From a virus: a stretch of 32,369 bases of DNA. The notes under the pieces are model-generated. The model searched no databases, was not told the DNA's origin, and saw only the letters and a program-made list of their open reading frames with translations. Positions 1 through 21,212 of the stretch are shown piece after piece. The stretch is from positions 1-32,369 of IMG/VR virus record IMGVR_UViG_3300040808_000493; one strand, written 5' to 3'. Made by a program: the position numbers and the translations under genes. Positions within the stretch are counted from its first letter, which is position 1, and each line of letters starts with the position of its first letter.

Positions 1-945
1 CCTTTATTTTGGTGTGTTTGGAATAATGTAGAAATATTAGACGATAGTATATTTGATTTTTACTATAATCCTACAGATGGCAGATATGATGCTGATAGAG
101 AAATGCATCATGTATACAAACACATATCTAGAAATGAAGAAACTTATCATAACGGAGTATTTTTAGCAACAACTAAACATACCATTGGCAAACGAGAGTT
201 TGACCATAAGTATGTTATTACACGTAAAGAGCATGACGAAGTCATTTCAAAATTACGTCCTTATGATATTGTGTTTATTAGTTATAATGAACCCGATGCT
301 GATGATAATTTTAAAAAATTAAAAGAAAGATTTCCAAGGGCAAAACGTGTACACGGTGTAACAGGAATACATCAAGCTCACATCAAAGCAGCAAAACTTT
401 GCGATACTGAAATGGTTTGGATTGTTGATGGCGATGCACATATTGTAGAAGATTTTGATTTTAGCCATGAAGCAAACACTTATGAAATTGATACTGTACA
501 TGTTTGGCAGAGTCAAAACCCAATAAATAATCTTGTTTACGGTTATGGTGGAGTAAAACTTTTGCCAAGAGATTTAACTTTAAACATGAACGTAGACACT
601 GCTGATATGACTACTAGTATTAGCGATAAATTTAAGTCAATGCCTGACGTGTCAAACATTACAGCATTTAATACTGATGAATTTAGCACTTGGAAAAGTG
701 CATTTAGAGAATGTGTAAAACTAGCATCAAAAACTATTAAAGGACAAATAGATGATGAAACTGAAAAAAGATTGGAAATCTGGTGTACACAAGGAGACGA
801 AGCTCGCTTTGGAAGGTATGCTATTAGCGGTGCTTGCGCTGGTCGTGACTTTGGGTATAACAATAGTGATAAGCCAGATAATTTAAAACTTATAAATAAT
901 TTTGAGTGGTTATATGAAAAATTTCGAACAAATTCCGTGGACTGA
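1..945 (+). CDS. Glycosyltransferase-like protein (GT-A type), 5' end outside the window
   Basis: The frame is open from base 1, so the gene begins upstream of the window; 314 residues are visible. An internal ATG lies at 103. A stretch reading IVFISYNEPDAD is followed by a hydrophobic strand ending in Asp-Gly-Asp (residues 143-145 from the window edge), like the metal-binding DxD of GT-A glycosyltransferases. The 34 residues before the internal ATG look like the tail of a preceding copy of the same kind of domain, so the full protein may be multi-domain (inference). It overlaps the following radical-SAM gene, so it is probably co-transcribed with it. Glycosyl transfer is inferred from the motif and general pattern only; donor and acceptor are unknown. 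Confidence 0.6.
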   Translation, partial: PLFWCVWNNVEILDDSIFDFYYNPTDGRYDADREMHHVYKHISRNEETYHNGVFLATTKHTIGKREFDHKYVITRKEHDEVISKLRPYDIVFISYNEPDADDNFKKLKERFPRAKRVHGVTGIHQAHIKAAKLCDTEMVWIVDGDAHIVEDFDFSHEANTYEIDTVHVWQSQNPINNLVYGYGGVKLLPRDLTLNMNVDTADMTTSISDKFKSMPDVSNITAFNTDEFSTWKSAFRECVKLASKTIKGQIDDETEKRLEIWCTQGDEARFGRYAISGACAGRDFGYNNSDKPDNLKLINNFEWLYEKFRTNSVD

Positions 946-1900
946 TATAACCCATTTCGGCCAAAAAACTCTCCTAAAGAGCCATCTTTTCACAGTTTCG
1001 TGGATCACCACAAGATATTGTAATTATTCGTGCAGTTATTGCTGGCCTCACGCAAGATCTAGTGTCCCTGACACTAAACCCACAGAATTATACTTAAAGA
1101 CCATGGATAGTATCAAAGCGCAAGCCCGTGCAAATAACTTTACAGATTTTCATTTTAGTTTCAGTGGCGGAGAACCTACTGCTAATAAACAGTTTATACC
1201 GTTAGTTGAACACTATTGTAGTGACATAGAACCAGCGTATCAAAGCATACACATGACCACAAATCTATCACCTGGCCATAAATGGTGGGATAAGTACTTA
1301 CATATAACGGAAAACTTGCAACGCCGCAGTGTAACAGCAAGTTACCATGCAGAATTTGCAGACGAACAAAAGTTTGGAGACAAATGTTTACAACTCATGG
1401 AAGGAGGTGTTTTTGTTACAATTAATCAAGTTATGGTTCCAGAAATGTTTGAAGATCTTTATCAAAGGCTTGAACGATTTGCCGCCAGAGGCATTAATGT
1501 CACTCTCAAACCACAATCCGACCCTACCGCCTCCTACGTGGTACATGGATATACAGAAGAACAAATTGCAACAATGCGACGAGGATTCCCACAACACTGG
1601 CAAGGAGAAGGAGTTGCACAAGTTGCACTCTACGACAGTAAAGGAAACGAGTACGAAATAGACCAAGCAGAACGATTTAATGCGTTCGGGTTTAATAAAT
1701 TTAAAGGATGGTCTTGTAATGCAGGCTATCAAGGAATAATTATCAGAGATACTGAAGTTAGGCGAAGTCATAGTTGTCATGATGACATACTAGGAACAAT
1801 TACAAACGGTTTTGAAATATTTAAACAACCAACTCCGTGTATTACACCTAGTTGTATGAGTAGTGCTGATAGTAAACTACCAAAAAGAAAAAATGTATAA
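914..1900 (+). CDS. Radical-SAM protein with C-terminal cysteine cluster
   Basis: 328 residues from the ATG at 914; a TTG at 902 is possible but the ATG has a weak GAG element 7 bases upstream. Cys36-x3-Cys40-x2-Cys43 is the radical-SAM [4Fe-4S] motif and GGEP (85-88) the SAM-binding motif. Four late cysteines (268, 288, 309, 314) suggest a Twitch/SPASM-like auxiliary cluster. The same layout is seen in the protein at 5406-6323, so the two are likely paralogues. The start lies 32 bases inside the previous gene, and the next gene starts inside this one. Radical-SAM chemistry is well supported. SPASM/Twitch enzymes often modify peptides or sugars, but the substrate here is not known. Confidence 0.85.
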   Translation: MKNFEQIPWTDITHFGQKTLLKSHLFTVSWITTRYCNYSCSYCWPHARSSVPDTKPTELYLKTMDSIKAQARANNFTDFHFSFSGGEPTANKQFIPLVEHYCSDIEPAYQSIHMTTNLSPGHKWWDKYLHITENLQRRSVTASYHAEFADEQKFGDKCLQLMEGGVFVTINQVMVPEMFEDLYQRLERFAARGINVTLKPQSDPTASYVVHGYTEEQIATMRRGFPQHWQGEGVAQVALYDSKGNEYEIDQAERFNAFGFNKFKGWSCNAGYQGIIIRDTEVRRSHSCHDDILGTITNGFEIFKQPTPCITPSCMSSADSKLPKRKNV

Positions 1901-2879
1901 TTTAGAACAAATAAAAGACATACACTTAGAAGTTACTTCACGATGTCAAGCACGTTGTCCAATGTGTCCGAGACGTATGCAAGGTGGTCCTATGATGCCA
2001 TATGTAACATTAGATGATATAAACTTAGAAACATTTAAAGAATGGTTTTCAGTTAGTTTTATACAACAACTTGATAAAGTTAATATGTGCGGTAACTTGG
2101 GTGATCCTATTATTAATACTGAAACACTTGACATATACAAATACTTACGTGAAATAAATCCTAACATTAATTTACAAATGCATACAAATGGTAGTGCAAG
2201 GAATAGTACATGGTGGCAAGAACTTGCTAGTGTAGATGTAACTGTAGTATTTGGAATAGACGGATTAGAAGATACACATGCCCGCTATAGAATAAACACA
2301 GACTTTCACACCATACTAGAAAATGCAAAAACATTTATTGCCGCAGGCGGCAATGCTAGATGGGACATGTTGGTGTTCCGTCACAATAAACATCAAGTAG
2401 ATGAATGTAGACAACTTGCAAGTGATCTAGGCTTTAGTGATTTTAAATACAAAAATTCTAGTAGATTTAAAAATGGTCAATTTAATGTTTTAGATGATAA
2501 TGGAAAAACAATTGATATTTTGTACCCTACAGAAAAAAGTGAAAGTTTTATAAAAGTAGTAGAAGAAGCAAAACAAGAAATAAACCCAACAATAACTTGC
2601 AAAGCACAAAACTCTCATTCTATATATGTTGGCGCTAACGGTAACATTGCACCCTGTTGTTGGCTAGATTTAGAATGGCTACCACCAGTAAGTGAAAGTA
2701 GAATTGATTACATGGATAAAATAGGAAATTTTCCTAATCTTAATAACCATACTTTGCAAGAAATATTTGACAGTAACTTTTTTAGTAGTATCGAAAACAC
2801 ATGGTCAAACGGTTGTTTAAAAGAATGCCAAAAACAATGCGGCAAGTTTGATAAACTAGGAGCTCAATTTGAAAGTTGA
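1893..2879 (+). CDS. Radical-SAM/SPASM domain protein
   Basis: 328 residues from the ATG at 1893, which sits in ATGTATAA and overlaps the previous stop by 8 bases; a GTG at 1863 is in frame but less likely. Cys18-x3-Cys22-x2-Cys25 is the radical-SAM cluster motif. The usual GGEP is replaced by GNLGDP (67-72), a variant found in some SPASM enzymes. The C-terminus carries Cys236, Cys255-Cys256 and Cys308-x3-Cys312-x3-Cys316, a SPASM-like auxiliary Fe-S cluster set. It is one of four radical-SAM genes in this strand block and is coupled to the methyltransferase gene that follows. Substrate unknown. Confidence 0.87.
   Translation: MYNLEQIKDIHLEVTSRCQARCPMCPRRMQGGPMMPYVTLDDINLETFKEWFSVSFIQQLDKVNMCGNLGDPIINTETLDIYKYLREINPNINLQMHTNGSARNSTWWQELASVDVTVVFGIDGLEDTHARYRINTDFHTILENAKTFIAAGGNARWDMLVFRHNKHQVDECRQLASDLGFSDFKYKNSSRFKNGQFNVLDDNGKTIDILYPTEKSESFIKVVEEAKQEINPTITCKAQNSHSIYVGANGNIAPCCWLDLEWLPPVSESRIDYMDKIGNFPNLNNHTLQEIFDSNFFSSIENTWSNGCLKECQKQCGKFDKLGAQFES
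2858..2862 (+). promoter_or_regulatory. Ribosome binding site deciding a TTG start
   Basis: AGGAG lies six bases before a TTG at 2869. No ATG is near enough to use it, and the next in-frame ATG (2902) would remove 11 well-formed residues. The site therefore supports TTG initiation of the methyltransferase. Confidence 0.6.
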
Positions 2880-3468
2880 TATTGAAGATGTACTATTTTG
2901 GATGGACGCAATTCGTAACAGCGAAAATCAATATCGTACACTAGAAAGTTTTTGGAAAGGCCAAGTACACAGTAAACTTTGGTTAATAGAACAAATGCAA
3001 GAATATAAACTCCGAGGTAATGTTGCTATTTACGGTGGCTGGAATGGAGTACTTGCAAGTTTACTCTTTAATAGTGATCTTGCAATACCTGAAATAGAAA
3101 GCATAGATATTGACCCCATCTGTAAAACTATTGCAGAAACTGTTAATATGCAACAACATATGCAAGGAAGATTTACTGCCACAACAGCAGACATGTGTGA
3201 GTATACTACAGATGCAGATGTTGCTATAAACACTAGTTGTGAGCATCTAACACAAGAACAATATGACAAATGGTTAAACAATATTCAGCCAGGCACTAAG
3301 GTAGTATTACAGAGCAATAATTATTTTGATCTAGAAGAACATGTAAGATGTGCAAATAGCATGGAAGAATTTGTACAACAATCAAAAATATATGTTGCAT
3401 ATGTTGGAGAATTTAAAACACCAAAGTATACTAGATATATGATTATAGGACATAAATTTAATGGGTAA
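2869..3468 (+). CDS. Class I SAM-dependent methyltransferase-like protein
   Basis: 199 residues from a TTG start supported by AGGAG at 2858-2862; it overlaps the previous stop by 11 bases. A glycine-rich motif I (VAIYGGWNGVLASLLF, residues 52-67) is followed by an acidic strand end IDIDP (79-83), as in the Rossmann-fold methyltransferases, where the acidic residue binds the SAM ribose. A later NTSCEHL segment (121-127) sits where motif IV is expected. Lying between two radical-SAM genes in one overlapping transcript, it probably methylates the same product. Methyl acceptor unknown. The motif reading is good; assignment to a subfamily is not possible. Confidence 0.72.
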   Translation: MKVDIEDVLFWMDAIRNSENQYRTLESFWKGQVHSKLWLIEQMQEYKLRGNVAIYGGWNGVLASLLFNSDLAIPEIESIDIDPICKTIAETVNMQQHMQGRFTATTADMCEYTTDADVAINTSCEHLTQEQYDKWLNNIQPGTKVVLQSNNYFDLEEHVRCANSMEEFVQQSKIYVAYVGEFKTPKYTRYMIIGHKFNG

Positions 3469-4756
3469 AACATTCTGCCCTTTGCCATGGATACATTTGG
3501 CAACTAGACCAAATGGCGATGTAAGAGTTTGTTGTACAGCAAACGCTAGTGGAGCAGGCAAGACTGATGACAAAGAAGTAGGACTTGTTAAACAAGATGG
3601 TATTAACATGAATCTACGTGATCATACTATCGAAGAAGTTTGGAATAGTGAGCAAATGCGCAATACTAGATTGCAAATGCTTAATGATGAAATTCCTTTA
3701 AGTTGTAAAAAATGCTTTGAAGAAGAAGCAAAAGGTATAAAAAGCAAAAGGAATTGGGAAACTGAAGTGTGGAATGAAAGGATTAATGTACAAGAAATAG
3801 TTGAGCAAACACAAGAAGACGGTTCGTTGCCTGTAAACATACCTTACTTTGATTTAAGATTAGGAAACTTATGTAATTTAAAATGCATTATGTGTAGTCC
3901 GCATGATAGTTCAAAGTGGATTAAAGATTGGAAATTACAATATCCAAAATATGAACTTATAGATTTAAAACAAGACCAAGGCTGGGATCCTAGTTTTGAT
4001 TATGTATGGTACAAAAAAAGTAGTTTCTTAGACTCTGTAAAAAATCAAGCACACTATATAAAAGAATTATACTTTGCTGGTGGAGAACCTTTGCTTATAC
4101 CAGAACATTATGCAATACTACAATTTATGATAGACGAAGGTTATGCAAAAGATTGTATACTTAGATACAATAGTAATGCTACAGACATATCGCAAAAATT
4201 GCTAGATATGTGGGAATATTTTAAAGAAGTAAAATTTAATTTTAGTATTGACAGCGTTGGCGAAAAAAATAATTATATACGATATCCGAGCAAGTGGGAT
4301 AGTATTGTAAGTAATATGCATTTACTTGATAATACATCAGATCATATAACTGTTAATCTTGCCTGTGCTGTACAACTTCTTAATGTACACAGTTTAGCAG
4401 AACTTGCACAATGGAAGTTAGATCAAAACTTTAAAAAAATAAATCGTGCGCCATATGGTGGAGGCATTATAGGGTTACATTTAGTGTACTTACCGTCGTA
4501 CCTAAATGTACGAGTACTACCTCAAGACTTAAAAGCTCAAGCCGCAGATACGATAAGTAAGTTTGCTAATAGTATTAACACACATGAATTTATTAATAAT
4601 GCTTATGGCAAAATGCGTTGGTTAGGTTTAGTTGATTACATGAATTCAGAAGATTGGTCACATAAACTTCCAGCGGCTGTACAATACTTAGAAATATGCG
4701 ACAAAACAAGAGAATTAAACTTTAGAAATACGTTTAAAGAATTGAGAGATATATGA
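3461..4756 (+). CDS. Radical-SAM protein with N-terminal Twitch/SPASM-like domain
   Basis: 431 residues; the ATG overlaps the methyltransferase end by 8 bases. The cysteine order is inverted relative to classical SPASM enzymes: Cys6, Cys24-Cys25 and Cys82-x2-Cys85 come first (within PLPWIHLATRPNGD and KKCFEEE contexts), then the radical-SAM Cys138-x3-Cys142-x2-Cys145, then GGEP (207-210). This arrangement matches the family called 'twitch domain-containing radical SAM protein', and the enzyme on the other strand at 9094-10128 has it too. The N-terminal cysteines probably hold an auxiliary cluster. Substrate unknown. The next gene starts at the ATGA that ends this one. Confidence 0.87.
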   Translation: MGKTFCPLPWIHLATRPNGDVRVCCTANASGAGKTDDKEVGLVKQDGINMNLRDHTIEEVWNSEQMRNTRLQMLNDEIPLSCKKCFEEEAKGIKSKRNWETEVWNERINVQEIVEQTQEDGSLPVNIPYFDLRLGNLCNLKCIMCSPHDSSKWIKDWKLQYPKYELIDLKQDQGWDPSFDYVWYKKSSFLDSVKNQAHYIKELYFAGGEPLLIPEHYAILQFMIDEGYAKDCILRYNSNATDISQKLLDMWEYFKEVKFNFSIDSVGEKNNYIRYPSKWDSIVSNMHLLDNTSDHITVNLACAVQLLNVHSLAELAQWKLDQNFKKINRAPYGGGIIGLHLVYLPSYLNVRVLPQDLKAQAADTISKFANSINTHEFINNAYGKMRWLGLVDYMNSEDWSHKLPAAVQYLEICDKTRELNFRNTFKELRDI

Positions 4757-5409
4757 CACCTGAAGAAATTGAAAGAGGACTACGTTGGCAAAGTTTAGTC
4801 AACTTAGGTAACCAAGTAAAACTTAAATGGCATATTGACCATCACCAAGTTGAGCAACAATTAGAACAGTTTAAAGATAATTGGTGTCCGTACAATGCTA
4901 AAAAAGACACTCACAATAATCGCTGGGGGTTACCAGTAACAAGTCACACCGGTGATGTTATGGACAATTACCATTTGAATAGTTTTGGTCATATGCAGAA
5001 ATATCATGACATAGAAATGAAGGAAGAAAACTTTAACACACCAACAGAGGTGTATAATAATATTCCTGAGCTTGCAAAACTAGTAGATGTTTTTGCACCA
5101 GATATTGGTCGTGTACATTTATTGCGTGTTGACCAAGGAGGCTTCTTTCCTCCGCACAGAGACTTTCACGGTGTAAGTCCAGAATATTTTAGATTGCTAG
5201 TAGTGTTTGGACGTTGTAGTCCTGAAAATTATGTACAAATGGTAGACGGCAAGCCATTATACCCAGAACCTGGATTTGTTTACTTTACAAACTTTCAATT
5301 AGATCACAGTGTGTTTAGTTTTAGTGATAATCTGTACTCATTAATTTTAACAGTAAAATTAAACGAACGTACACAACAACTAATTTTAAATAACACAATG
5401 GCAGAATGA
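4753..5409 (+). CDS. 2OG/Fe(II) oxygenase-like protein, aspartyl/asparaginyl beta-hydroxylase type
   Basis: 218 residues; start and previous stop share ATGA. His135-Arg-Asp137 and the distal His185 form an HxD...H iron facial triad in a double-stranded beta-helix context (GGFFPPHRD; PGFVYFTNFQLDHS). At ten residues past the distal His, where five other complete domains in this window carry Arg for 2-oxoglutarate, this protein has Tyr195. It may anchor the co-substrate differently or use another acid. It sits between two radical-SAM genes, the only oxygenase in that block. Fe(II) binding is well supported; the hydroxylation target is unknown. Confidence 0.72.
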   Translation: MTPEEIERGLRWQSLVNLGNQVKLKWHIDHHQVEQQLEQFKDNWCPYNAKKDTHNNRWGLPVTSHTGDVMDNYHLNSFGHMQKYHDIEMKEENFNTPTEVYNNIPELAKLVDVFAPDIGRVHLLRVDQGGFFPPHRDFHGVSPEYFRLLVVFGRCSPENYVQMVDGKPLYPEPGFVYFTNFQLDHSVFSFSDNLYSLILTVKLNERTQQLILNNTMAE

Positions 5410-6323
5410 AACTTTCTTACAAAGACCCTGCAAAAGAAGATTGGTTTTTAGTTAGTTGGACACTATCTAATAAATGCAATTATCGTTGTTCTTATTGTCC
5501 AAGCAGACTGCATGATGGAAGTACAGGACATAAAAAATGGGATACAGTCAAACATTTCGTTGAAAACTTTAACGCTAACGGTAAACAAATTTGCTATAGA
5601 ATCTCAGGCGGCGAACCTACTTATTGGAAACATTTTATTGACATGGCCAAACTTGTAAAGCAGCAAGGTCAGTACTTTAGTTTTCTAACTAATGCAAGTC
5701 AAAAAGTAGAATACTTTGCAGAGATAACAAAACACACTGATGGAATGATTATAAGTTATCATCCTGAATTTGCTGATATTGATCATATAATAGAAGTTAT
5801 AAAAGTAATGACTTGCCCTGTTGCTGTTAATCTTATGATGTTACCTGACAGCTTTGATGAGCTATTAGATATTGCAGAACGTTTATTTAATTGTAGCGAC
5901 AATGTAATGATATGGCCAAAGGTAATTTTAGATAAACAAGAAATTGAAGGATATCCTACTAACGAAGTTAGTGCATACTCGACATCACAGCAAACCATTA
6001 TTACTAATTGGCCTTATACACGTAAATTAGATGATACAAAGTTACACAGAGGCGGCCTACTGTTAAATGGTAAAGATATTAATGCAAATGACTTAATAGT
6101 TAATGAGCTTAATGCACATAAAGGTTGGAAATGCTGGGCTGGATTAGATATGATCAGTATTGATATGTGGGGAGACATATATCGTGCTGAGTGTCAGCAA
6201 GGGGGCAAAATAGGTAATTTAGAAAAATATACGTTACCTAATAAAACAATTACATGCGGTAAAGAAAAATGCTACTGTTTAAGTGATATTTATTTACGTA
6301 AAGAGTTAATTAAATTTGTTTAA
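5406..6323 (+). CDS. Radical-SAM protein, paralogue of the one at 914-1900
   Basis: 305 residues, last gene of the plus-strand block; the ATG overlaps the previous stop. Cys24-x3-Cys28-x2-Cys31 and GGEP (68-71) define the radical-SAM core. The C-terminus has Cys243 (GWKCWAG), Cys263, Cys284, Cys289 and Cys291. The segment resembles GWSCNAG and the late cysteines of the protein at 914-1900, so both probably share fold and an auxiliary cluster. It ends one base before the stop of the convergent propeller gene. Substrate unknown. Confidence 0.86.
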   Translation: MKLSYKDPAKEDWFLVSWTLSNKCNYRCSYCPSRLHDGSTGHKKWDTVKHFVENFNANGKQICYRISGGEPTYWKHFIDMAKLVKQQGQYFSFLTNASQKVEYFAEITKHTDGMIISYHPEFADIDHIIEVIKVMTCPVAVNLMMLPDSFDELLDIAERLFNCSDNVMIWPKVILDKQEIEGYPTNEVSAYSTSQQTIITNWPYTRKLDDTKLHRGGLLLNGKDINANDLIVNELNAHKGWKCWAGLDMISIDMWGDIYRAECQQGGKIGNLEKYTLPNKTITCGKEKCYCLSDIYLRKELIKFV

Positions 6324-6324
6324 T

Positions 6325-7464
6325 TTATATTAGTTCTCTGTTTATTATATTTAAATCTTCGTCCATAGATAATATGTAATGTTCTTTTGTTTCTATTTCG
6401 TACCCTATTACTTTTAGTACATGATTATGTATAATAGGTCTTCCTAGCAAGTATTCTTTTAAATATAACTCTTTAACTATAATGCCATGTACATTAATTT
6501 TTAAAATAGGACAACTAGGTGTTCCTGCAGGCATGAATACAGCATGTGTATTATATCGTACACCTGATCTAAACCTATATTTGCCGCCAAATTTAAGTCC
6601 TATATCGAAGTTAGTAGATTGTTTAGTTGTAGTGTCAAATATTAATCCCCAATTACTATCGTCATTGTAATCTTCACCGTAAGGAACTGCTATAATTTTG
6701 TCATGTATCAAAACTCCGCAATTATATTTTTTAGCAAAATCCTTGCATTGGGTTTTATACAGTTTCATTTCTTTTGTTTCAGTATCAAACTCTACAACTT
6801 CATTTAGTCCTGCGGTTTCTCCAAATGGCAATGCATACAATTTATTACCTACAACAATAATGTCACTATACTTGCGTGTTATAGAATTATCAATTCCAGT
6901 TATTTGATAACTGTTAATTTTTTCACCGTCAAACTCTAATAATAAATTATAGTTTGGCTCATCACCTCTTGGCATGCTCCAATAACTACCGTTACAATAA
7001 ACAGTACCCATATGAAGTTTTTTACCCTGTACGGGCATGTTAATAATCTCAACACCATTATTGATGTGTAAAGCAACGTTTGTTCCTTCGTACCCTAATG
7101 GAAAACTAAATCCTGTTTCGCCGTTAGTTGCTAAACTATAAAACTGTCCGGTTCCGTCTAGATCTAAGTCGTAATATTTGGGTTTATAATTTCTAAGTTG
7201 TACAACTCGTTTACATTCGTCCCATATACCGTAAGGTATTAACCATATATCATTTTTAATAACTTGACATACATTAGTTTTACTAGTTACTTTGGGTAAG
7301 TCAAGTTCTATATTTCGTTTTTTGTTTATTACTTTAAATGTAGAATAATCTTTACAAAGATCTGTTGCAAACGGTGGAGATACTAAATCGTGCTTATACT
7401 TTTCAAGTATAAGATGTTTAATTTCTGCTTCTTTATACCAATCTTGAAATGCTTTATATGTCAT
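6325..7464 (-). CDS. Beta-propeller-like repeat protein (shorter copy)
   Basis: 379 residues, the last gene of the minus-strand block. It contains repeated blade-like units built around a beta-strand, then Pro and an acidic or glycine turn: WLIPYG, YWSMPRGDE, LYALPFGE, IIAVPYGE, VFMPAGT. This is the same unit as in the protein encoded just upstream, so the pair probably arose by duplication. The repeats suggest a kelch-like beta-propeller used for binding, perhaps to a glycan or protein. No signal peptide or membrane segment is seen, so a cytoplasmic or virion location is possible. The start overlaps the upstream gene by 11 bases. No enzymatic motif recognised. Confidence 0.65.
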   Translation of the reverse strand: MTYKAFQDWYKEAEIKHLILEKYKHDLVSPPFATDLCKDYSTFKVINKKRNIELDLPKVTSKTNVCQVIKNDIWLIPYGIWDECKRVVQLRNYKPKYYDLDLDGTGQFYSLATNGETGFSFPLGYEGTNVALHINNGVEIINMPVQGKKLHMGTVYCNGSYWSMPRGDEPNYNLLLEFDGEKINSYQITGIDNSITRKYSDIIVVGNKLYALPFGETAGLNEVVEFDTETKEMKLYKTQCKDFAKKYNCGVLIHDKIIAVPYGEDYNDDSNWGLIFDTTTKQSTNFDIGLKFGGKYRFRSGVRYNTHAVFMPAGTPSCPILKINVHGIIVKELYLKEYLLGRPIIHNHVLKVIGYEIETKEHYILSMDEDLNIINRELI

Positions 7465-10895: not shown

Positions 10896-10896
10896 A

Positions 10897-13811: not shown

Positions 13812-14455
13812 AGCGATATATAGAAGAACATCAAACAGTTGATCTAGGCTTTGACGTTAAGCGTATATTTTGTGTTGATGTCAAAAAGTTACAGGATTGG
13901 TATAATAATTTACAAGAAAATTACAAAGATTGGAAATTTGTTGTAGGAGAAAATCATCATGTGTGGCAGTTTCCAATTAGTGATCCTACTGGGAAGACTG
14001 GACATATTATTCCAGACGAAACTGGTTACTATACGTTATGCTGGAATAGTGACGAAGAAGGTCCTAAACCTTTTGAGCAAGGTTGTGCAAAACCAGAGTA
14101 TAGGGATAATGATAATGATGAATTAAATCCTAGAAAATGTTTTACAGGATACGGATTAGAAATTGTTAAAAGTCTACCCTTTCGTAGTAAAAAATGGTTA
14201 GTAACTGAGCATGTAACTGGAACTAAATTAATTACACATCAAGACAGTCCAGATAAAATTAGGGTACATATTCCTATACAAACTAATAAAGATAGTAATT
14301 GGATTATAAACGGTAAAGAATATCATATGGAACCAGGTTGGGCATATCTTGTAAACACAACACTTCCTCACAGTGTTGAAAACAAAGGCACAACAGACAG
14401 AGTACACCTTTATGGCAAAGTGTGGACTGAGGATGTAAAAGCATGGTTAATGTAA
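13808..14455 (+). CDS. 2OG/Fe(II) oxygenase, third of the tandem family
   Basis: 215 residues from the ATG at 13808 (ATGA overlap with the previous stop; an in-frame TTG two codons earlier is less likely). His144-Gln-Asp146, His188 and Arg198 are present. The core VHIPIQTN... GWAYLVNTTLPHSVENKGTTDR is nearly the same as in the two-domain protein at 14861, so this member is closer to that branch than to its upstream neighbours. The next gene, a phosphatase-like protein, starts 13 bases before this one ends. Confidence 0.82.
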   Translation: MKRYIEEHQTVDLGFDVKRIFCVDVKKLQDWYNNLQENYKDWKFVVGENHHVWQFPISDPTGKTGHIIPDETGYYTLCWNSDEEGPKPFEQGCAKPEYRDNDNDELNPRKCFTGYGLEIVKSLPFRSKKWLVTEHVTGTKLITHQDSPDKIRVHIPIQTNKDSNWIINGKEYHMEPGWAYLVNTTLPHSVENKGTTDRVHLYGKVWTEDVKAWLM

Positions 14456-14868
14456 AAACATATGCAATGAAAGATGTGCAACCTGTACCAAACAACGAAT
14501 ATCTTATTGGCATACACAGTAATGGTAATTGGATACATTCTGAGCCTGTTATGGCAGATGCAGATAATGTTTTAAATTTAAAATTTGAAGATGTTGAAAA
14601 AACAGGATTAAAAGCAATACAATGGTATAATAATACACAAAAAATCATACATGCTATTGCATGTAGTAATAGTCAAGCAGAACAAATTGTACGTTTTATA
14701 CGTAAGATACCAGAGGGTAAAAAATTACATGTATATTGTGCAAAAGGAAAGTCAAGAAGTGTTGCTGTTGCTAACTATGTTAAAAAGTATTATAATAACG
14801 AAATAATAGACGACAGTGGACATAACAGACACGTTTATAGTCTTTTAGAAAGGTATCATAATGTTTGA
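14443..14868 (+). CDS. Cys-x5-Arg phosphatase-like protein (dual-specificity type)
   Basis: 141 residues. HVYCAKGKSRS has Cys99, Arg105 and Ser106 in the order of the tyrosine/dual-specificity phosphatase signature C-x5-R-S/T, followed by a helix (VAVANYVKKYY) as in that fold. At 141 residues it matches small single-domain members. It is embedded between oxygenase genes with overlaps at both ends (13 and 8 bases), so it is expressed with them. It could remove phosphate from a protein, sugar or nucleotide in the same pathway. The general-acid Asp is not clear from sequence alone. Confidence 0.7.
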   Translation: MVNVKTYAMKDVQPVPNNEYLIGIHSNGNWIHSEPVMADADNVLNLKFEDVEKTGLKAIQWYNNTQKIIHAIACSNSQAEQIVRFIRKIPEGKKLHVYCAKGKSRSVAVANYVKKYYNNEIIDDSGHNRHVYSLLERYHNV

Positions 14869-16033
14869 TTTTGATATTAAAGAATTGCCTAACTTTAAGT
14901 TTTCTTTGCAAGAACTAAAAGACTATTATGCTAAAGTATCTCAGTATGATAATTTAAAATGGCAACCAAATAGTACAAACACATTAGATCACAAAGTAAA
15001 TGGTGTATACAGTTGGGCTATACAAAGCAATTTAAAGGATGCTACAAAGCCTTGTCCACCGTATGACATTAAACATGATACTGAAGTATTAGGCACATTT
15101 GATAACCCTACAGAGCTTGTATTTGGGTTTGGCAAGTATATTGTAGATGCAATACCTGATATTAGACAAACAGTTATAAGTGCCCATCCACCTGGTACAG
15201 TTATACAACAACATATAGATAATACTGAGTTTGTAAAAGTGCATATACCTATACAAACAAACAATCAAAGTTATTTTGTATTTGGCGATTCAAAGTATAA
15301 TTTACAAGAGGGTAAAGCATATCTTATTAATACTACCAATCAACATGGAACAATTAATCAAGGCGATACAGACAGAATACATTTAATATTTAAAATACCT
15401 GTAGACAATGTAGATGAACTACTTAATGCAGAGTGGATATTAGATCCATCTCAAATAAATTTTGATTGCAAAAAAATAGAAAATATAAAATTTAATTTTA
15501 GTGAACTCGAAGATTACTATGATGACCTTGTAGATAATTTTGATTACTTAAAATGGACAATGCCTGAAGTTCCGGGAACTAATCTAAAAGGGTTATACGG
15601 ATATGCTATATTAACTAATTGTGAAAATGTAGACGAACGTCCGTTGCCTCCAGGTATGCGTAAAGACAAAAAAGCATTTGACCCTATTATAAAACCTACT
15701 AAGATGCTTAAAGGGTTTGCTAAAAAACTATACGATCAGATTCCTTATATAGAAGAATTAGTTATTACTGGGCATCCTGAAAATTCTGGAATACCCCCTC
15801 ACGCAGATAAAGACGAACATGTAAGAGTACATATTCCGTTGTATGCTAATAACGATTCGCATTTTATTATTAACGAACACCCGTATGTATTAGAACCTAA
15901 TAATGTTTACATTGTAAATACAAAACGTATACACACTACAATTAACAAAGGTTCTACAGATAGAATCCATTTACATTTTAAAATTCCTATAGGAAAAATA
16001 AATATTTTTTTAAGGACACAAATAAACGTATGA
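14861..16033 (+). CDS. Two-domain 2OG/Fe(II) oxygenase (tandem fusion)
   Basis: 390 residues made of two copies of the same domain. Copy one has His118-Ile-Asp120, His162 and Arg172; copy two has His314-Ala-Asp316, His358 and Arg368. The copies are offset by 196 residues with identical 44-residue triad spacing and the same (V)HIP(I/L)...N and INxG(D/S)TDRIH segments, showing an internal duplication without loss of catalytic residues. Each resembles the single-domain protein at 13808. Both sites look functional, so the enzyme may act twice on one substrate or on two sites. The halogenase gene starts at its stop (ATGA). Confidence 0.85.
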   Translation: MFDFDIKELPNFKFSLQELKDYYAKVSQYDNLKWQPNSTNTLDHKVNGVYSWAIQSNLKDATKPCPPYDIKHDTEVLGTFDNPTELVFGFGKYIVDAIPDIRQTVISAHPPGTVIQQHIDNTEFVKVHIPIQTNNQSYFVFGDSKYNLQEGKAYLINTTNQHGTINQGDTDRIHLIFKIPVDNVDELLNAEWILDPSQINFDCKKIENIKFNFSELEDYYDDLVDNFDYLKWTMPEVPGTNLKGLYGYAILTNCENVDERPLPPGMRKDKKAFDPIIKPTKMLKGFAKKLYDQIPYIEELVITGHPENSGIPPHADKDEHVRVHIPLYANNDSHFIINEHPYVLEPNNVYIVNTKRIHTTINKGSTDRIHLHFKIPIGKINIFLRTQINV

Positions 16034-17247
16034 ACATTTTAATTGTAGGCGGCGGAACAGCGGGCTGGTCAGCAGCAGCATATCTCAGTAAAAGTTATAA
16101 TGTAACTCTTGTAGAGAGTAGTGATATTCCTATTATTGGTGTAGGAGAAAGTACGTTACCACTGATGCAAAAATTTTGTCAAGATTTAGGACTTGAAGAA
16201 TCTCAATGGATGGATAAATGCAGTGCAATTCATAAATTAGGAATACAACATATTGGCTGGAAGAAAGACGTAGATGAATCATGGTTCCATTGGTTTTTAT
16301 ACGACAGAAATAAACACGATACTTTTGACCATTTAGAAAAGGAAACATTACCGCAAGGAATGTTTGAATATGCATACCATGTAGATGCAACTAAATTTGG
16401 AACTGAAGTAATGAAGCCGTTAGCATTAGAAAACGGTGTTACTCATATAATAGACAACGTAGATGATATTATATTAGCTGATGATAACAGTGTTGACCAT
16501 GTTATGCTATCTAAGACTGGTAAAGCACAATATGACTTGTATGTAGACTGTTCTGGATTTGCAAAAATATTCTCTAAAAAACAAAACACAGAATTTCAAC
16601 AATATGATTATTTAAAAAATGATAGTGCGATAGCATGTCCTCAACCATTAGATACAAATATTAAAAGACACACTATAACTAAAACAATGAACCATGGATG
16701 GATGTGGGAAATATCTTTACAAAATAGAAGAGGCGTAGGCTACGTTTATAGTAGTGAATTTTGTTCGGACGACGAAGCAATAAAAGAATACTTAGAGCAT
16801 TGGCCTGATACTGATAGATCAAAGTTAAGGGTTTTAAAATTTACACCTGGTTATGCTAAAACTCCATTCTTCAAGAATGTTGCATCCATAGGTTTAAGTG
16901 CAGGATTTATAGAACCATTAGAAGCAAATGGAATATGGTTAATTAATTTTAGTATTATGGGATTATATAAATGCTTACAAGAAGATACATCTTTTGATGT
17001 GTTTAATAGAAGGTACAAAACAATAATGGAAGATATCAAAAATTTTACAATAAGTCATTATACATTATCAGAATTAGATCATACACCTTATTGGAAACAT
17101 TTTTATGACTTAGAGAAGCAACTAAACACCAAAGACATAGTTAAACAAAAAGGTGAACAGCCAGACACTGCCTTTGGAACATCATTAAATTTATTTCACC
17201 CTTATAGTTGGTGGTCTAAATCTAAATATTTTTTACGTTCTAAATAA
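16030..17247 (+). CDS. Flavin-dependent tryptophan-halogenase-like enzyme
   Basis: 405 residues. The N-terminal GGGTAGW (7-13) is the FAD Rossmann motif, GVGEST (37-42) follows as in tryptophan halogenases, and Lys69 in AIHKLGI lies where the catalytic Lys (PrnA Lys79) is expected. GWMWEI (223-228) matches the WxWxI motif that bars monooxygenase activity, and GFIEPLEANGI (292-302) covers the region of the second active-site acid. At 405 residues it is shorter than PrnA-type enzymes of over 500. A cyanophage halogenase of this class (VirX1) is known to iodinate varied substrates. It would need reduced flavin from the host. It closes the oxygenase operon; its 3' end overlaps the convergent gene by 46 bases. 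Confidence 0.85.
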   Translation: MNILIVGGGTAGWSAAAYLSKSYNVTLVESSDIPIIGVGESTLPLMQKFCQDLGLEESQWMDKCSAIHKLGIQHIGWKKDVDESWFHWFLYDRNKHDTFDHLEKETLPQGMFEYAYHVDATKFGTEVMKPLALENGVTHIIDNVDDIILADDNSVDHVMLSKTGKAQYDLYVDCSGFAKIFSKKQNTEFQQYDYLKNDSAIACPQPLDTNIKRHTITKTMNHGWMWEISLQNRRGVGYVYSSEFCSDDEAIKEYLEHWPDTDRSKLRVLKFTPGYAKTPFFKNVASIGLSAGFIEPLEANGIWLINFSIMGLYKCLQEDTSFDVFNRRYKTIMEDIKNFTISHYTLSELDHTPYWKHFYDLEKQLNTKDIVKQKGEQPDTAFGTSLNLFHPYSWWSKSKYFLRSK

Positions 17248-17759
17248 TATTTTTCTATATTAATCTTCCATAAATTCTGTGGAACATTGTACAACTCCAT
17301 TGTACGATCTAAACTCCAAATTCCTGTTTTAGCAAGCATTGGCATAATAGTATTATTCATACGTTGGCTTTTGCCGCCGTCGTTGTTAATGTTAGTACTA
17401 ATATAAAGTTCTGCGTTGGGATTTTTAGATGCCCAATCAATCTGTATAGGCAATAGATAACTTAAATGTATTCCAGTTTTAAATATATTTCTACCAGTGC
17501 CTAACGTATAGCCTGGTAATTGTGCGCCTCTAAATAATAGTCTATAGGCATTAGGTGATACTTCAGGAAGTTTGTGTGCGCCGGCAATACTTATAATACG
17601 GTCTTGGTCAAATGCTGCACACCAAAACGGACACCAGTCCCATTTCATTTTTTCTAACGAAGTGTTGTTACTATAAGACTGAGAATTACAAAATATCTTA
17701 ACAGCATCTCTGTCATTTTTAGATAATATTCTAAACGTCAGTCTTCCAAGTTTTTCCAT
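17202..17759 (-). CDS. Possible GNAT-like acyltransferase
   Basis: 185 residues, last of a three-gene minus-strand block. The start RLTFRILSKNDRDAVKIF looks like the first strand and helix of GNAT domains. The C-terminal ISTNINN... followed by a helix and KTGIWSLDRTMELYN also fits strand 5-6 of that fold. The acetyl-CoA pyrophosphate loop (Q/RxxGxG/A) is not clear, so the family call is tentative. It overlaps the adenylation-domain gene upstream by 29 bases, suggesting it uses the acyl group that protein activates (inference). Its 3' end overlaps the halogenase 3' end on the other strand. Confidence 0.5.
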   Translation of the reverse strand: MEKLGRLTFRILSKNDRDAVKIFCNSQSYSNNTSLEKMKWDWCPFWCAAFDQDRIISIAGAHKLPEVSPNAYRLLFRGAQLPGYTLGTGRNIFKTGIHLSYLLPIQIDWASKNPNAELYISTNINNDGGKSQRMNNTIMPMLAKTGIWSLDRTMELYNVPQNLWKINIEKYYLERKKYLDLDHQL

Positions 17760-18402
17760 TTGCTTCTTTTCTTCTATGTGAGAATGTCATTGTTTGCATG
17801 TTAAAGATATCACCTGTAGCTCTACCATTTATTATTGCTTCACCTAAATTAGATGTTGCTGTTACAGGGTGAAACATTATATGATCATCTGTTGGTCGAT
17901 TATGCAAATTGAAACTAGGACTATCATAACCTATAAGAATAGGTGGCGGAAACTCTGTCATACCGTACCAGTTTGCTACACACTGTACACCTCTATTTTT
18001 AAATGCATCTATAAAGTCTTGATCTATTTTATTACTACCTGTTACCATGTAACGTACACAACTCATATCTAAGTCTTTAAAGCCCTTTGTACTTTGTAAA
18101 AGCTCTAAATGACGCGGTATAAGCGCAATATAAGACGGTTGTAAGCGTTTAAATGCTTGTATGTACGTATATGGTGTAAAGTTGCTACAAACGTACTGTG
18201 CGCCGCTTAAAACGCTAGGATATGCTGTTATAGTCCAATGTGCAATAGTATTAGCAGGAAACACATCTAAAACTACATCGTTTTCTGTTAATTTTATTTC
18301 AGCAACACTACGTTTTGCACACTTAGTAATGTATTCCCAAGAGTGTGTAATTTGTTTAGGTTCGTCTGTACTACCTGATGTAAACAGTGTTATTGAGCTC
18401 AT
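17731..18402 (-). CDS. Shortened AMP-binding (acyl-adenylate-forming) protein
   Basis: 223 residues. TSGSTDEPK (8-16) is the phosphate-binding loop (A3 motif), NWYGMTE (144-150) the A5 motif that contacts the adenine, and GRATGDIF (193-200) the TGD of A7. Full adenylation enzymes have about 500 residues. Here the N-terminal subdomain before A3 is absent, and the protein ends soon after A7, with no A8 hinge or C-terminal lid with the catalytic Lys. The frame is intact with no sign of a frameshift, so this is a compact form rather than a pseudogene. It could activate a small acid, or pair with the SGNH hydrolase and GNAT-like proteins beside it. Confidence 0.75.
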   Translation of the reverse strand: MSSITLFTSGSTDEPKQITHSWEYITKCAKRSVAEIKLTENDVVLDVFPANTIAHWTITAYPSVLSGAQYVCSNFTPYTYIQAFKRLQPSYIALIPRHLELLQSTKGFKDLDMSCVRYMVTGSNKIDQDFIDAFKNRGVQCVANWYGMTEFPPPILIGYDSPSFNLHNRPTDDHIMFHPVTATSNLGEAIINGRATGDIFNMQTMTFSHRRKEANGKTWKTDV

Positions 18403-19208
18403 TACAATCTCCCAAGTATGTAGTCTGCTATATCTCTATGAACTTGTATTCCGGGATGACCAGAATCTTTAAATAAATCTCTAGCATATCTTAAATTAAT
18501 ATCGCTAGTATCTACTTTATCTAAATCGTATGCAAAAATATTATTATCAATTATAAATTGTTCTTTTGGTTTAAAGGTTAATTCAATTAATTTTATACCT
18601 AAACTTTTACAAACGGATTTTAGTTGTTGCCTAAGATAAGTTGCTTCTTCGTAAAAGAAGTTACTATCCTCTAATACTCTATATAATTTAGCATATTCTT
18701 CTATGCTAGACATATGATTACGGTAGCAAAACAATGCTTTGTCTTTAGTAAAAAATGTAGTTGCATTTACAGGTGGATATTCTATAACTAAAATATTGGG
18801 CTTGCTATGAGTTTTTAAGTAATTAAAAAATGATAATACTTGTAATTTTATTGTGTAAGTAGGGCCTGAATAATTTATAAAATTTAGTTTTGTTGTATTG
18901 CTTACGAGTTCGCTAAAACGATCATTCTGATCAATGCCAATGCCTAATGTAAAACTTGTACCACTAAAATAGATAGACTTACCTTCAGAAGTAATATTAT
19001 CCGACATGCGTAAGCCATAATTGTTAAAAGTATAATTAACTTTTTTATCTCGATAAATCCAGTCATGCGGAGCATACTTTAAATTTCGATTGTACAGTTG
19101 TTCAGAGTCTGTTCCGTAAAACATAGGGGCATCATTTGGCATCATACTAGAGTGTGTATAAGGCCAACTATCGATATTAAAGTTAACAATAGTTTCTAAC
19201 TTAGCCAT
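18402..19208 (-). CDS. SGNH/GDSL hydrolase-like protein
   Basis: 268 residues. GTSFTLGIGI (83-92), with Ser85, fits block I of SGNH hydrolases (GDSxxxG) with Thr in place of Asp. INYSGPTY around Gly115 resembles block II, and Asp248-Ser-Gly-His251-Pro near the C-terminus is the DxxH block V. Ser85, Asp248 and His251 would form the triad. Such enzymes cleave or transfer acetyl and other acyl esters on sugars. It overlaps the 2OG-like gene upstream by 8 bases and abuts the adenylation-domain gene, so the three genes 19208-17202 may add or remove an acyl group on a surface glycan (inference). Confidence 0.72.
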   Translation of the reverse strand: MAKLETIVNFNIDSWPYTHSSMMPNDAPMFYGTDSEQLYNRNLKYAPHDWIYRDKKVNYTFNNYGLRMSDNITSEGKSIYFSGTSFTLGIGIDQNDRFSELVSNTTKLNFINYSGPTYTIKLQVLSFFNYLKTHSKPNILVIEYPPVNATTFFTKDKALFCYRNHMSSIEEYAKLYRVLEDSNFFYEEATYLRQQLKSVCKSLGIKLIELTFKPKEQFIIDNNIFAYDLDKVDTSDINLRYARDLFKDSGHPGIQVHRDIADYILGRL

Positions 19209-19971
19209 TATATGTTATATGTGTCTCGCTTTTTAACAATCTATCTACAGCATCATTTGACGGATCAGAGTGTAACAATATCCATTCTTCATCTCCATGA
19301 TTTACAGGAGCATGTACATTGCTAACATTGACTAGATAAAGTTCACCTGGTTTAGGATTATATGCAGCACGTTCGTATTGCCAAGTATCTGCTGGTGTTT
19401 CGCCTAACTGTGAAAAGAAATGCCATAATGAATCTTCATTAGTTTGTAAATTAACATGTAATCTAATCATATGTTCTGACATATCTTTGCCGTCGTGGTC
19501 TCTATGAGGCCCAATGCCAGATTCTTTAGCACAGTTCATAGCTCTACCCCATGTCCACGCATCTTCTCCTAATTGATCTATCATACTCTTGTACGCACCA
19601 AAATAATATTGTTCAAGATGGTTGTCCATTTTATTTTCCCATGTTTCGTCTAACATTTCTGGAAATTTTTCTTTATTACAAAAGAATGGAGTAGGTATAG
19701 CATCACGTCTTTGTATAGGCCACTGTAATGCCCAAAACCCTGCATCACCTACACATATGCCATTCATTCTAGGATGATCGAGTAAATGAGATTCAAATAA
19801 GTCTTTTTGAGAAAATAAAAATAAACTTTCAGGAGTTGAGAGTTTTACTTGATTAAACCATTCGAGCATTGGTTCGATATCTATAGTAACATTCAATCTA
19901 ACCATGTCCCAATCTAAATTTCTTAGATCTTCTCTAGTATAATTTTGTGGATCTGTAATTAATTTAGTCAT
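19201..19971 (-). CDS. 2OG/Fe(II) oxygenase-like protein lacking the usual Arg
   Basis: 256 residues from the ATG at 19971, chosen because AAGGAG lies seven bases upstream; an in-frame codon at 20004 would run through a terminator-like hairpin. His156-Arg-Asp158 and His220 give the iron triad, but ten residues on there is Trp230 where most neighbours have Arg. The N-terminal scheme (NLDWDMVRLNVTIDIEPMLEWF; FWALQWPIQRRDAIPTPFFCNKEKFPE) matches the tandem family at 12326-13811, so it is a diverged relative on the opposite strand. HxD-to-His spacing is 64, with an insertion holding QLGETPADTW. It follows the fibre-like gene and precedes the SGNH gene. Confidence 0.76.
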   Translation of the reverse strand: MTKLITDPQNYTREDLRNLDWDMVRLNVTIDIEPMLEWFNQVKLSTPESLFLFSQKDLFESHLLDHPRMNGICVGDAGFWALQWPIQRRDAIPTPFFCNKEKFPEMLDETWENKMDNHLEQYYFGAYKSMIDQLGEDAWTWGRAMNCAKESGIGPHRDHDGKDMSEHMIRLHVNLQTNEDSLWHFFSQLGETPADTWQYERAAYNPKPGELYLVNVSNVHAPVNHGDEEWILLHSDPSNDAVDRLLKSETHITYNG

Positions 19972-19977
19972 AAAAAA

Positions 19978-20012
19978 ACTCCTTATACAGTATTTAACCT
20001 GCAATAAGGAGT
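19978..20012 (-). terminator. Rho-independent terminator of the fibre-like gene, overlapping the next ribosome binding site
   Basis: On the minus strand ACTCCTTAT (20012-20004) pairs perfectly with ATAAGGAGT (19986-19978) across a 17-base loop, followed by a run of six or seven T. It lies 19 bases after the fibre-like stop. The 3' arm contains AAGGAG, the ribosome binding site of the gene starting at 19971. Confidence 0.6.
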
Positions 20013-20030
20013 CCTTTGTTTATTGTGATA

Positions 20031-21212
20031 TTAGTTTAAGTTAACCCAAGCACTTCCGTCGTAGCCTTGAAACTTAGCAACATCAGTTACAAATACCATC
20101 ATGCCGGCAGCTGGAGAAGTAATTGCTGCATCTCTCGCAGTAGCATCTGCGTATGTGCCAGGTTGTATTATAGGTGAAGTAAATGTTCCTACATGATCTA
20201 ACGATGCTTTTTTTGCATTAGCAAGGTCAGGACCGTTAAGAACAACTAGTTCTAATTTTGCTTCAGGAAGAGTAGATACACCGTCGCTTGGTGTTACTAG
20301 TTCTCCTCTAACTGCAACAGGAGCAAGTTCTATAGTACCTGCAGGACTATCTAATACACCACCAAAACTAACTTGTCCTAAACCTTCGCCGGCCCCAATT
20401 GCTGTCATCGCATTAAAAGTTCCGTTGTGGGTAACAAAAGTTATGTTTCCGCTTGTTTCAGTACTTGCTTCGTATTGAGTGTAAATTGAAATTGCAAAAT
20501 CGCCAGGGTCTGTTACAAGTTTTAATGTATCAGATTCTAGTCCTCTAGTATCAATAGTTGCTGGTTTAGTACTATTAATTACTCCAATAATTTCACCACT
20601 GGAATTTGTAATTTGTTGAGTTCTATCAGCACTGTATAGCAATCCTGCTAATGAACCATCTGACGAATCAATTATCTTAGCATCTTCTACGGCGTTATAT
20701 ACATCAGCAATAACTCTTCCTGTAGTTCCATTGATAATTTGTGTGCCACCGTCTGCGGTATAGACGTCACCAAATGTAGTACCGTCGATATTTATTGGAT
20801 AAGTTGCACCTTCTACTAATCCAGTGCCTGCTACGGAGTTATCATCACCAGGAACAAACTTTGTACCGTCCCATTTTAAAACTTGACCAACAGTTGCAGG
20901 AGTTGAAAGGTCTACGTCTGATAGTGCGTTAATGTTTTTGTTGTTTAGTTTTGTAGGATCGCCTGGTACAAATGCAGTATTACCGGCATCGTATACTAGT
21001 CCTTGTCCGCCTACAGGTGGTGCAAGCACTGTTACGTCTGTTAAATCATTTAGTGCTAGTGCGTTATTTGCAATGTCAACTGCAACACCGCCTGGTGTTG
21101 TTCCATCGCCAACATATAATTTGCTTGTGTCAGTATCCCATACTGGCTCACCAACTTCTGGAGTGTATCCAGTGCGTTGAGCTGTGGTACCTCTTAATAC
21201 TTTTAATGCCAT
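20031..21212 (-). CDS. Fibre-like virion protein with internal repeats
   Basis: 393 residues; CAGGAG lies ten or so bases before the ATG. The first 45 residues (VLRGTTAQRT... GEPVWDTDTSKLYVGDGTTPGG) are the N-terminal module common in phage fibres and receptor-binding proteins (Mtd_N-like). Residues 57-85 and 97-123 are two copies of L(T/S)DV...GQ..K/VYD/WDG..FVPGD. Residues 149-211 hold three tandem units of about 21 residues with a D-V-Y-x-A or L-L-Y-S-A start. The end, FQGYDGSAWVNLN, is a common C-terminal phage structural motif. It is likely a tail or baseplate fibre or decoration that meets the host surface. A NATAAATA site and a terminator frame it as a single-gene unit. Confidence 0.78.
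   Translation of the reverse strand: MALKVLRGTTAQRTGYTPEVGEPVWDTDTSKLYVGDGTTPGGVAVDIANNALALNDLTDVTVLAPPVGGQGLVYDAGNTAFVPGDPTKLNNKNINALSDVDLSTPATVGQVLKWDGTKFVPGDDNSVAGTGLVEGATYPINIDGTTFGDVYTADGGTQIINGTTGRVIADVYNAVEDAKIIDSSDGSLAGLLYSADRTQQITNSSGEIIGVINSTKPATIDTRGLESDTLKLVTDPGDFAISIYTQYEASTETSGNITFVTHNGTFNAMTAIGAGEGLGQVSFGGVLDSPAGTIELAPVAVRGELVTPSDGVSTLPEAKLELVVLNGPDLANAKKASLDHVGTFTSPIIQPGTYADATARDAAITSPAAGMMVFVTDVAKFQGYDGSAWVNLN

Follow-up and report, generated by a model that had tools for sequence, protein, structure and literature searches.

Several marine phages carry clusters of tailoring enzymes. The host recognition clusters (HRCs) of pelagimyophages and cyanomyophages combine fibres, glycosyltransferases (GTs) and radical S-adenosylmethionine (radical-SAM) cassettes in a hypervariable, non-syntenic region between VrlC and gp14 (Zaragoza-Solas et al., 2020; PMC7029224). 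Jumbo cyanophages such as S-SSM6a have a halogenated amino-acid/sugar cluster with a halogenase, several 2-oxoglutarate (2OG) oxygenases and methylases, for which polysaccharide decoration or a metabolite has been proposed (Iyer et al., 2021; PMC7824862). The T4-like environmental genome TARA_ERS488813_N000010 contains 12 radical-SAM genes, noted as Fe-S proteins (Nishimura et al., 2017; PMC5332604), and VirX1 is the flavin-dependent halogenase of cyanophage Syn10 (reviewed in PMC8407142). The element considered here is an island of genes (g01-g23, positions 1-20004) in IMG/VR virus record IMGVR_UViG_3300040808_000493, which was analysed over its whole length of 32,369 bases (the window). Five of its genes encode radical-SAM enzymes and two encode β-propellers; it also has eight 2OG-type domains, a flavin halogenase and an AMP-binding fragment, and it adjoins a fibre gene with an Mtd_N domain. 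We tentatively favour, at somewhat below even likelihood, a role as a late, mobile island that would add a tailored glycan-type unit to the virion fibres of a T4-superfamily marine myophage.

Comparison with described clusters

Like the HRCs, the window island is large, holds radical-SAM cassettes and contains or abuts fibre genes, but it has a syntenic core that moves as a block, though some of its genes are swapped. As to placement between VrlC and gp14, the protein to the left of the island in a more distant relative (G001) has only partial virion-protein matches, the right side in the window consists of g25-g31, and the flanks in a second phage backbone (G1194, see below) are non-virion genes. 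The GTs of the HRCs have as counterparts here a firmly assigned epimerase and GT calls that are weak or fold-based. The halogenase and several 2OG oxygenases recall S-SSM6a, whereas the carbamoyltransferase core of that cluster was not found by Pfam in the window island or its left extension (the island may extend further), no HAD phosphatase match occurs among the window island genes, and what the window island has in addition is its radical-SAM cassette, the propellers and the link to a fibre gene. HTVC008M has halogenase and 2OG genes among structural genes; in the 37 kb examined, none of its genes bears a radical-SAM annotation. TARA_ERS488813_N000010 is likewise a T4-like marine phage rich in radical-SAM enzymes, but the available portion of its description does not mention an island, mobility or a shared bacterial cassette (PMC5332604).

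Because two tested features, hypervariability and a carbamoyltransferase core, fail, the island is set apart from the known clusters. No description of this cassette was found in the open literature searched. What is new is that a conserved architecture, transferred as a block, is tied to a fibre gene, that promoter motifs point to late expression, and that a radical-SAM cassette is shared with Bdellovibrionota. The initial annotation, made from the letters of the window, had held that the gene content far exceeds the metabolic genes usual in phages; this stands against deposited phages, but the content is not unprecedented (PMC5332604, PMC7029224).

The tight overlap of genes that it described is present: the sole larger gap within 1-20004 is 68 bases long (10129-10196), and the genes form four runs, g01-g07 (+), g11-g08 (-), g12-g19 (+) and g23-g20 (-), the last lying downstream of the fibre gene g24 on the same strand. 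Comparison with a near-identical record (differing at 7 of 26,651 bases and adding 9.8 kb leftwards) places the start of the window within the island and not at its edge. On this left extension, genes for an NAD epimerase and a sixth radical-SAM enzyme are accompanied by genes judged GT-like by eye and by a fibre-like open reading frame (ORF) that is rich in glycine and truncated at the contig end.

Movement, late motifs and fibre genes

The island genes recur together. Scanning 2.9 million viral contigs gave 63 loci with g05 and 20 with g13, and g02, g03, g04 and g05 stand together in 28 of the 32 g05 loci that are 14 kb or longer, all retrieved via g05 and some of them near-copies. Gene order is kept within the window-type clade at about 45-100% identity. 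The larger records hold 6-15 PF04055 matches (12 of 12) and 1-6 PF05118 matches each, and NF033640 exceeds its cut-off in 28/28 records. T4 gp23 was above cut-off in two of the nine records searched, all possibly fragments.

Synonymous differences (pS) separate the core from its surroundings in the closest relatives. Relative to G002, core genes g03-g18 (without g08) have pS of 0.03-0.28 and flanking genes g26-g39 0.42-0.67; the corresponding ranges, without g08 and g09 in the core, are 0.20-0.48 and 0.51-0.71 for G009 and 0.21-0.42 and 0.47-0.74 for G016. Core values for G017 and G018 are similar (0.15-0.52 without swapped genes). The low core pS set against the higher flank pS therefore indicates that the block spreads as a unit. 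Nucleotide tracts agree on a common boundary at 1892/1893, the ATG of g03, in three of these five relatives (G002, G009, G016), the records of G017 and G018 ending near or before it. Core Ka/Ks ratios (nonsynonymous to synonymous) are mostly 0-0.25, with maxima of 0.30 in g21 and 0.47 in g20, so the core genes are under purifying selection.

Within this constant scaffold, alleles are swapped at g01/g02, g08, g09, g19, g22 and g24 while neighbouring genes stay alike. For example, g08 is 55-57% identical to its clade relatives while g07 is 95-97% identical, and g09 occurs as two allele types (62% and 92-95% identity). The halogenase is an exchangeable part of the island, having been exchanged as a gene-length tract (16155-17258) in four of the five relatives (G002, G009, G016, G018). 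Joint switching of g19 and g22 alleles was considered and rejected: it held in six clade records and was broken in L152, where g19 is at 52% to the window type but g22 at 93% to the other type.

A different backbone carries the same block. In the 356,312-base phage record G1194 the island runs from g02 to g24 (235433-259277) with a fibre gene homologous to that of the window at its end, and no halogenase was seen in it. The presence of the block in a second backbone with a terminal fibre gene therefore indicates that fibre gene and enzymes travel together.

These data also bear on the notion that the island is unrelated selfish cargo piling up at a permissive spot, for which one could cite the swapped internal alleles, the variable island size (6-15 radical-SAM matches per record) and the shifting core order and orientation of distant relatives. 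We regard it as very unlikely, given the order kept across the window-type clade, the signature of purifying selection, the same block in another backbone and the retention of all four core genes in nearly all the longer loci. The proposal that the gene set is one biosynthetic-type unit is borne out by in-order co-occurrence in close relatives, by whole-block movement and by the failure to find a conserved short precursor gene; the genes are not shuffled singly as unrelated cargo.

Further features of the relatives' islands were recorded. Hydrophobic proteins resembling fatty-acid desaturases (by eye) lie in or beside radical-SAM islands of G003 (10115-10858, 16773-17582) and G004 (95318-95956, 98075-98749), at loci L091 and L094, and radical-SAM matches with two in-frame stops in G019 (5194-5745) and G028 (14728-15279) reflect either island-gene decay or a match overrunning the gene end.

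The island is also associated with late-promoter-like motifs. The sequence TATAAATA, which we take to be the T4 late-promoter consensus, occurs 33 times in 1,004,617 bases from 15 records, and 23 of these occurrences lie 3-60 nt upstream of a called start, ranking it first by upstream fraction of 56 same-composition 8-mers (median 5%). The core ATAAATA is so placed at 120 of 183 sites. Because some of the records are related to one another and gene starts were assigned automatically, the motif counts are not independent. The window contains one TATAAATA; its ATAAATA sites are in Table 1, and the context of the site before g19 is the same in G002. In G001, ATAAATA precedes a tail-sheath gene, a tail-fibre-like gene, the run leading into g01-g07, and g24; in G1194 it precedes a fibre-like gene, a g18-type 2OG gene, g23 and g24. 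The motifs predict late expression of the island. As a separate observation, 8-mers of the same composition are typically about six times as frequent (median count 189) as TATAAATA (33 occurrences), a depletion that looks like selection against the motif outside promoters.

Fibre genes mark the island edges. The Mtd_N fibre gene g24 closes the right edge, tail-fibre/structural PHROG matches lie to the left of the G001 island, and the left ORF of G013 is fibre-like by eye with no PHROG match. This arrangement and the motifs agree with a role late in infection that is tied to the virion. The islands of G001 (31381-31965) and G1194 (242415-242999) also encode, in their interior, a conserved fibre-like protein (about 195 aa, 52% identity), with paired late motifs in G1194; it was not seen among the window genes.

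Enzymes and candidate substrates

All five radical-SAM genes pass PF04055, all eight 2OG-type domains keep HxD and the distal H, and the halogenase (PF04820) and adjoining Mtd_N fibre gene are confirmed, as the initial annotation had it (Table 1). Both g05 and g11 belong to the NCBI N-terminal twitch radical-SAM family NF033640, exceeding its curated cut-off of 170 bits. A viperin-like antiviral role was rejected, as NF038283 scores of 37 bits (g02) and 44 bits (g07) fall far below the cut-off of 180. The 2OG-type domains reside in g06, g12, g14, g15, g16, g18 (two) and g23. PF05118 is above cut-off in g12, g14, g16 and twice in g18, reaches 17.8 bits against a cut-off of 22.6 in g15, and is absent from g06 and g23 in the Pfam search. 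The HxD and distal H are at least 90% conserved among 7-22 mostly related homologues per domain; the motif profile was seeded with g12, g14 and g16 homologues, so that the g15 and g23 scores are not independent.

Halogenating activity of g19 is predicted from family and motifs. The protein keeps GGGxxGW (GxGxxG), which we take to be FAD-binding, and the lysine position, presumably the active-site catalytic residue, together with what we take to be the WxWxIP motif lacking its proline. It falls in the same flavin-dependent family as VirX1, shares these GxGxxG and lysine positions with it, and has 31% identity with the annotated Syn10 halogenase that matches it best.

Support for other activities varies. 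Methylation, named for the island in the initial annotation, is a motif-level call for g04: this protein has no Pfam or NCBIfam match, and PDB sequences match only at E 0.3 or worse. Of the acyl-modifying genes, the AMP-binding g21 stands, as a fragment, and the GNAT-like call for g20 is by eye only. The propellers g08 and g09 gave no credible PDB relative with sequence profiles. For g01 there was no PDB-sequence match, and Pfam GT2 appears only at E 0.047 in one of 11 homologues. For g13, the AlphaFold2 model is poor (mean predicted local distance difference test score, pLDDT, 62.7), Foldseek gave nothing at E ≤0.001, and sequence profiles gave no credible PDB kin. VIA-align Z scores for g13 of 8-10.6 to many GT-A-type chains and 8-10 to few others, including methyltransferases, are near noise, and the protein may tentatively combine a GT-A with a methyltransferase-like domain.

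Table 1. Positions and assignments of island genes, the adjoining fibre gene and late-promoter-like motifs in the window
Feature	Coordinates	Strand	Assignment
g01	1..945	+	3' part of a protein of 653 aa in the near-identical record; GT-A-like by DGD motif only
g02	902..1900	+	radical-SAM, best conserved cassette member; PF04055 E 1.4e-11; ATG at 914
g03	1863..2879	+	radical-SAM/SPASM; PF04055; ATG 1893 is the shared exchange boundary
g04	2869..3468	+	methyltransferase-like, motif inference
g05	3461..4756	+	N-terminal twitch radical-SAM; PF04055; NF033640 408 bits
g06	4753..5409	+	2OG-type oxygenase, H135 D137 H185; no Pfam match
g07	5406..6323	+	radical-SAM; PF04055 E 5.6e-11
g08	6325..7464	-	β-propeller, swapped allele; paralogue of g09
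g09	7454..8689	-	β-propeller, model mean pLDDT 82.3; two allele types
g10	8652..9107	-	short APH/RIO-kinase-like; weak Pfam matches under cut-offs
g11	9094..10128	-	N-terminal twitch radical-SAM; PF04055; NF033640 220 bits
g12	10197..10895	+	2OG-type oxygenase; PF05118 E 1.5e-13
g13	10897..12366	+	possible GT-A domain (17-262) and methyltransferase-like domain (270-487), tentative
g14	12326..13075	+	2OG-type oxygenase; PF05118 E 4.2e-9
g15	13068..13811	+	2OG-type oxygenase, below Pfam cut-off; motif present
g16	13802..14455	+	2OG-type oxygenase; PF05118 E 8e-11
g17	14443..14868	+	dual-specificity-phosphatase-like; PF00782 E 0.0064, under cut-off
g18	14861..16033	+	two 2OG-type domains; PF05118 E 2.3e-23, two stretches
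ATAAATA, late-promoter-like	892..898	+	15 nt before g02 ATG (914)
ATAAATA, late-promoter-like	15998..16004	+	25 nt before halogenase g19
g19	16030..17247	+	flavin-dependent halogenase; PF04820 E 2.5e-95, 320.5 bits (cut-off 21)
g20	17202..17759	-	GNAT-like acyltransferase by eye; no Pfam match
g21	17731..18402	-	AMP-binding fragment, 223 aa; PF00501 E 2.9e-19, covering only positions 168-330 of 384
g22	18402..19208	-	SGNH-hydrolase-like by eye, swapped allele; no Pfam match
g23	19201..20004	-	2OG-type oxygenase, H167 D169 H231
g24	20031..21212	-	fibre, Mtd N-terminal domain PF18454 (Mtd_N) E 2.1e-10; right island edge
ATAAATA, late-promoter-like	21256..21262	-	43 nt before fibre g24

From these enzymes we infer the substrate. 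The link to glycans comes from the firmly assigned NAD epimerase of the left extension, the tentative GT-A domain of g13, and GT2 genes near cellular-type cassettes. In a hydropathy scan the only flag among g01-g24 falls inside the radical-SAM gene g07, no convincing membrane protein was judged present in that set, and the island enzymes of the window look soluble. This makes a complete pathway for lipid-linked polysaccharide unlikely in the phage of the window, and a soluble substrate likely. GT and nucleoside diphosphate (NDP)-sugar genes with the radical-SAM cassette would build an unusual sugar-type unit in the cytosol, which methylation, eight 2OG hydroxylations, halogenation and acyl transfer could then trim. 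The unit would be attached late, most likely onto virion fibres and with the host surface as a close second, leading to altered adsorption or shielding, and the swapped genes (g01/g02, g08/g09, g19, g22, g24) might set a variable final pattern upon the constant scaffold. We favour late fibre decoration because of the epimerase, the GT-like genes, the late-promoter motifs and the fibre gene that accompanies the block.

SPASM/twitch radical-SAM enzymes are typical maturases of ribosomally synthesized and post-translationally modified peptides (RiPPs). Their presence here, with weak NCBIfam similarities, raises the question of RiPP maturation with a dedicated precursor. The initial annotation saw no short precursor gene, and a screen of 484 short ORFs, limited to those of 20-95 aa that lie outside larger genes, agrees: across seven phage records and eight Bdellovibrionota loci it found no conserved precursor peptide inside the cassette, and its cross-record matches fell in the phage backbone. 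With no short ORF conserved across records within the cassette, RiPP maturation appears highly improbable.

The remainder of the window, in which no tRNA genes were found over the 32,369 bases, holds two further gene groups. A VWA/metallopeptidase-like gene is paired with a MoxR-type ATPase gene at 22760-25268, and 738 deposited phage records contain matches to the VWA protein. The best of them are in jumbo phages, Phosso and PA5oct among them, a hint at the lineage of this phage. Exonuclease, FolE-like (phrog_2197) and phosphoribosyl-transferase genes at 27028-32063, with a QueE-like frame at 28617-29591 (by eye), may form a 7-deazaguanine pathway, perhaps one that modifies DNA or tRNA.

The cassette in Bdellovibrionota and the competing readings

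Some Bdellovibrionota genomes contain a core of three radical-SAM genes together with methyltransferase-like and/or GT-like genes. Scanning bacterial genomes with a g05 profile gave at least 78 loci among the best 80 matches, and further carriers may exist. In the eight best loci (L174-L181; 43-48% identity), g02, g03 and g05 are present in all eight (g03 is distant in L180), g04 in six and g01 in five. Seven are contigs of metagenome-assembled genomes (MAGs) titled Bdellovibrionales, Bdellovibrionia or Halobacteriovoraceae; L180 bears just the title 'bacterium' and came up in the Bdellovibrionota phylum search too. The best conserved member, g02, is 52-57% identical to five Bdellovibrionota homologues and occurs in 22 of 368 genomes of the phylum (20 of these 22 have one match each). 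The same query, for which the 22 serve as positive control, found none in samples of 398 and 395 genomes from two other phyla (E 1e-40). Neither g02 nor g13 has a match among deposited phages (50,697 records searched with g02). Island genes also occur on MAG contigs titled Neisseriaceae (L182) and Gammaproteobacteria (L188), which are probably misbinned phage DNA.

In trees of g02, g03 and g05 a second phage or phage-like group is nested in the Bdellovibrionota clade, apart from the window's clade, with joint-clade support of 100/100 (g02), 99/96 (g03) and 100/99 (g05), a topology compatible with transfer in either direction. Only clade membership was used for g03 and g05, as several bacterial loci (e.g. 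L183-L186, L189, L195, L197, L222) were mislabelled as phage in those trees. The link of the phage to Bdellovibrionota comes from island genes only.

The surroundings of cellular-type cassettes bear on what the enzymes act upon. Among 53 neighbouring proteins, seven match GT2, two match PF05118, and asparagine synthase, epimerase and acyltransferase are matched once each. The setting of L181, judged by eye, is chromosome-like and free of phage genes: the cassette stands alone there, flanked by pilus-like genes and genes of amino-acid catabolism.

Both sets of surroundings lend support to remodelling of the host surface, in which the lipopolysaccharide or capsule of the infected cell would be altered by action on host-made NDP-sugars or lipid-linked glycans, blocking other phages or the readsorption of progeny. 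This is also the published reading for the GTs of pelagimyophage clusters and jumbo cyanophages (PMC7029224, PMC7824862). We consider it somewhat unlikely, since the window island and its left extension showed no recognisable flippase, polymerase or initiating transferase, the promoter motifs are of late type and stand next to virion genes in the window's relatives, and a fibre gene accompanies the block even into the non-structural neighbourhood of G1194. The solitary cassette of L181 and enzyme classes that fit natural-product tailoring could instead speak for a diffusible halogenated, hydroxylated amino-acid or sugar compound, poisoning competitors or signalling. Such a metabolite is quite unlikely: carrier-protein, export and resistance genes and a full adenylation domain were not recognised in the window island, where g21 covers a fragment of the domain, and the tie to a fibre gene and the late promoters would go unexplained.

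Several observations nevertheless weigh against decoration of virion fibres. The contrast behind block exchange is limited to the close clade: core pS relative to the more distant G001 (0.55-0.67) is at the same level as its flanks, and in distant relatives (g05 about 45% identical) the core set stays while order and orientation differ. Relatives' g24 proteins are 50-55% identical to that of the window, yet most core genes are 85-100% identical, and near-constant enzymes beside diverged fibre alleles therefore disfavour a tight, coevolved enzyme-fibre match. The island of G1194 is flanked by non-virion genes. Late promoters would be expected for late remodelling of the host surface too, and hydrophobic proteins are encoded in some relatives' islands: G001 has one of 104 aa, and those of G003 and G004 are desaturase-like. 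The GT assignments of g01 and g13 are weak, and eight domains of Asp/Asn-hydroxylase type point to sugars no more than to amino-acid or protein chemistry. The 53 neighbours omit those of L181, which did not look like polysaccharide genes, and include six from the probable phage contigs L182 and L188; by eye, the setting of L181 gives no pointer to polysaccharide.

A bolder proposal, which we hold to be unlikely, is that the cassette is a previously unrecognised pathway common to marine large myophages and Bdellovibrionota, and that the late mobile island writes a hydroxylated, methylated, halogenated surface code on the phage's own fibres, exchanged with the fibre gene. Were this the case, the nesting of a second phage group in the Bdellovibrionota clade would mean that some of these phages may infect predators, and the pathway would be an added source of unusual carbon-hydrogen bond chemistry. 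Marine phages carry far more tailoring chemistry than replication seems to require. A defined and conserved mobile unit, apparently made late and tied to a fibre gene, with a smaller cellular version, makes the targets of phage radical-SAM, 2OG and halogenase enzymes testable. If virion decoration is correct, host range and visibility would hinge on covalent chemistry hidden from genome sequences.

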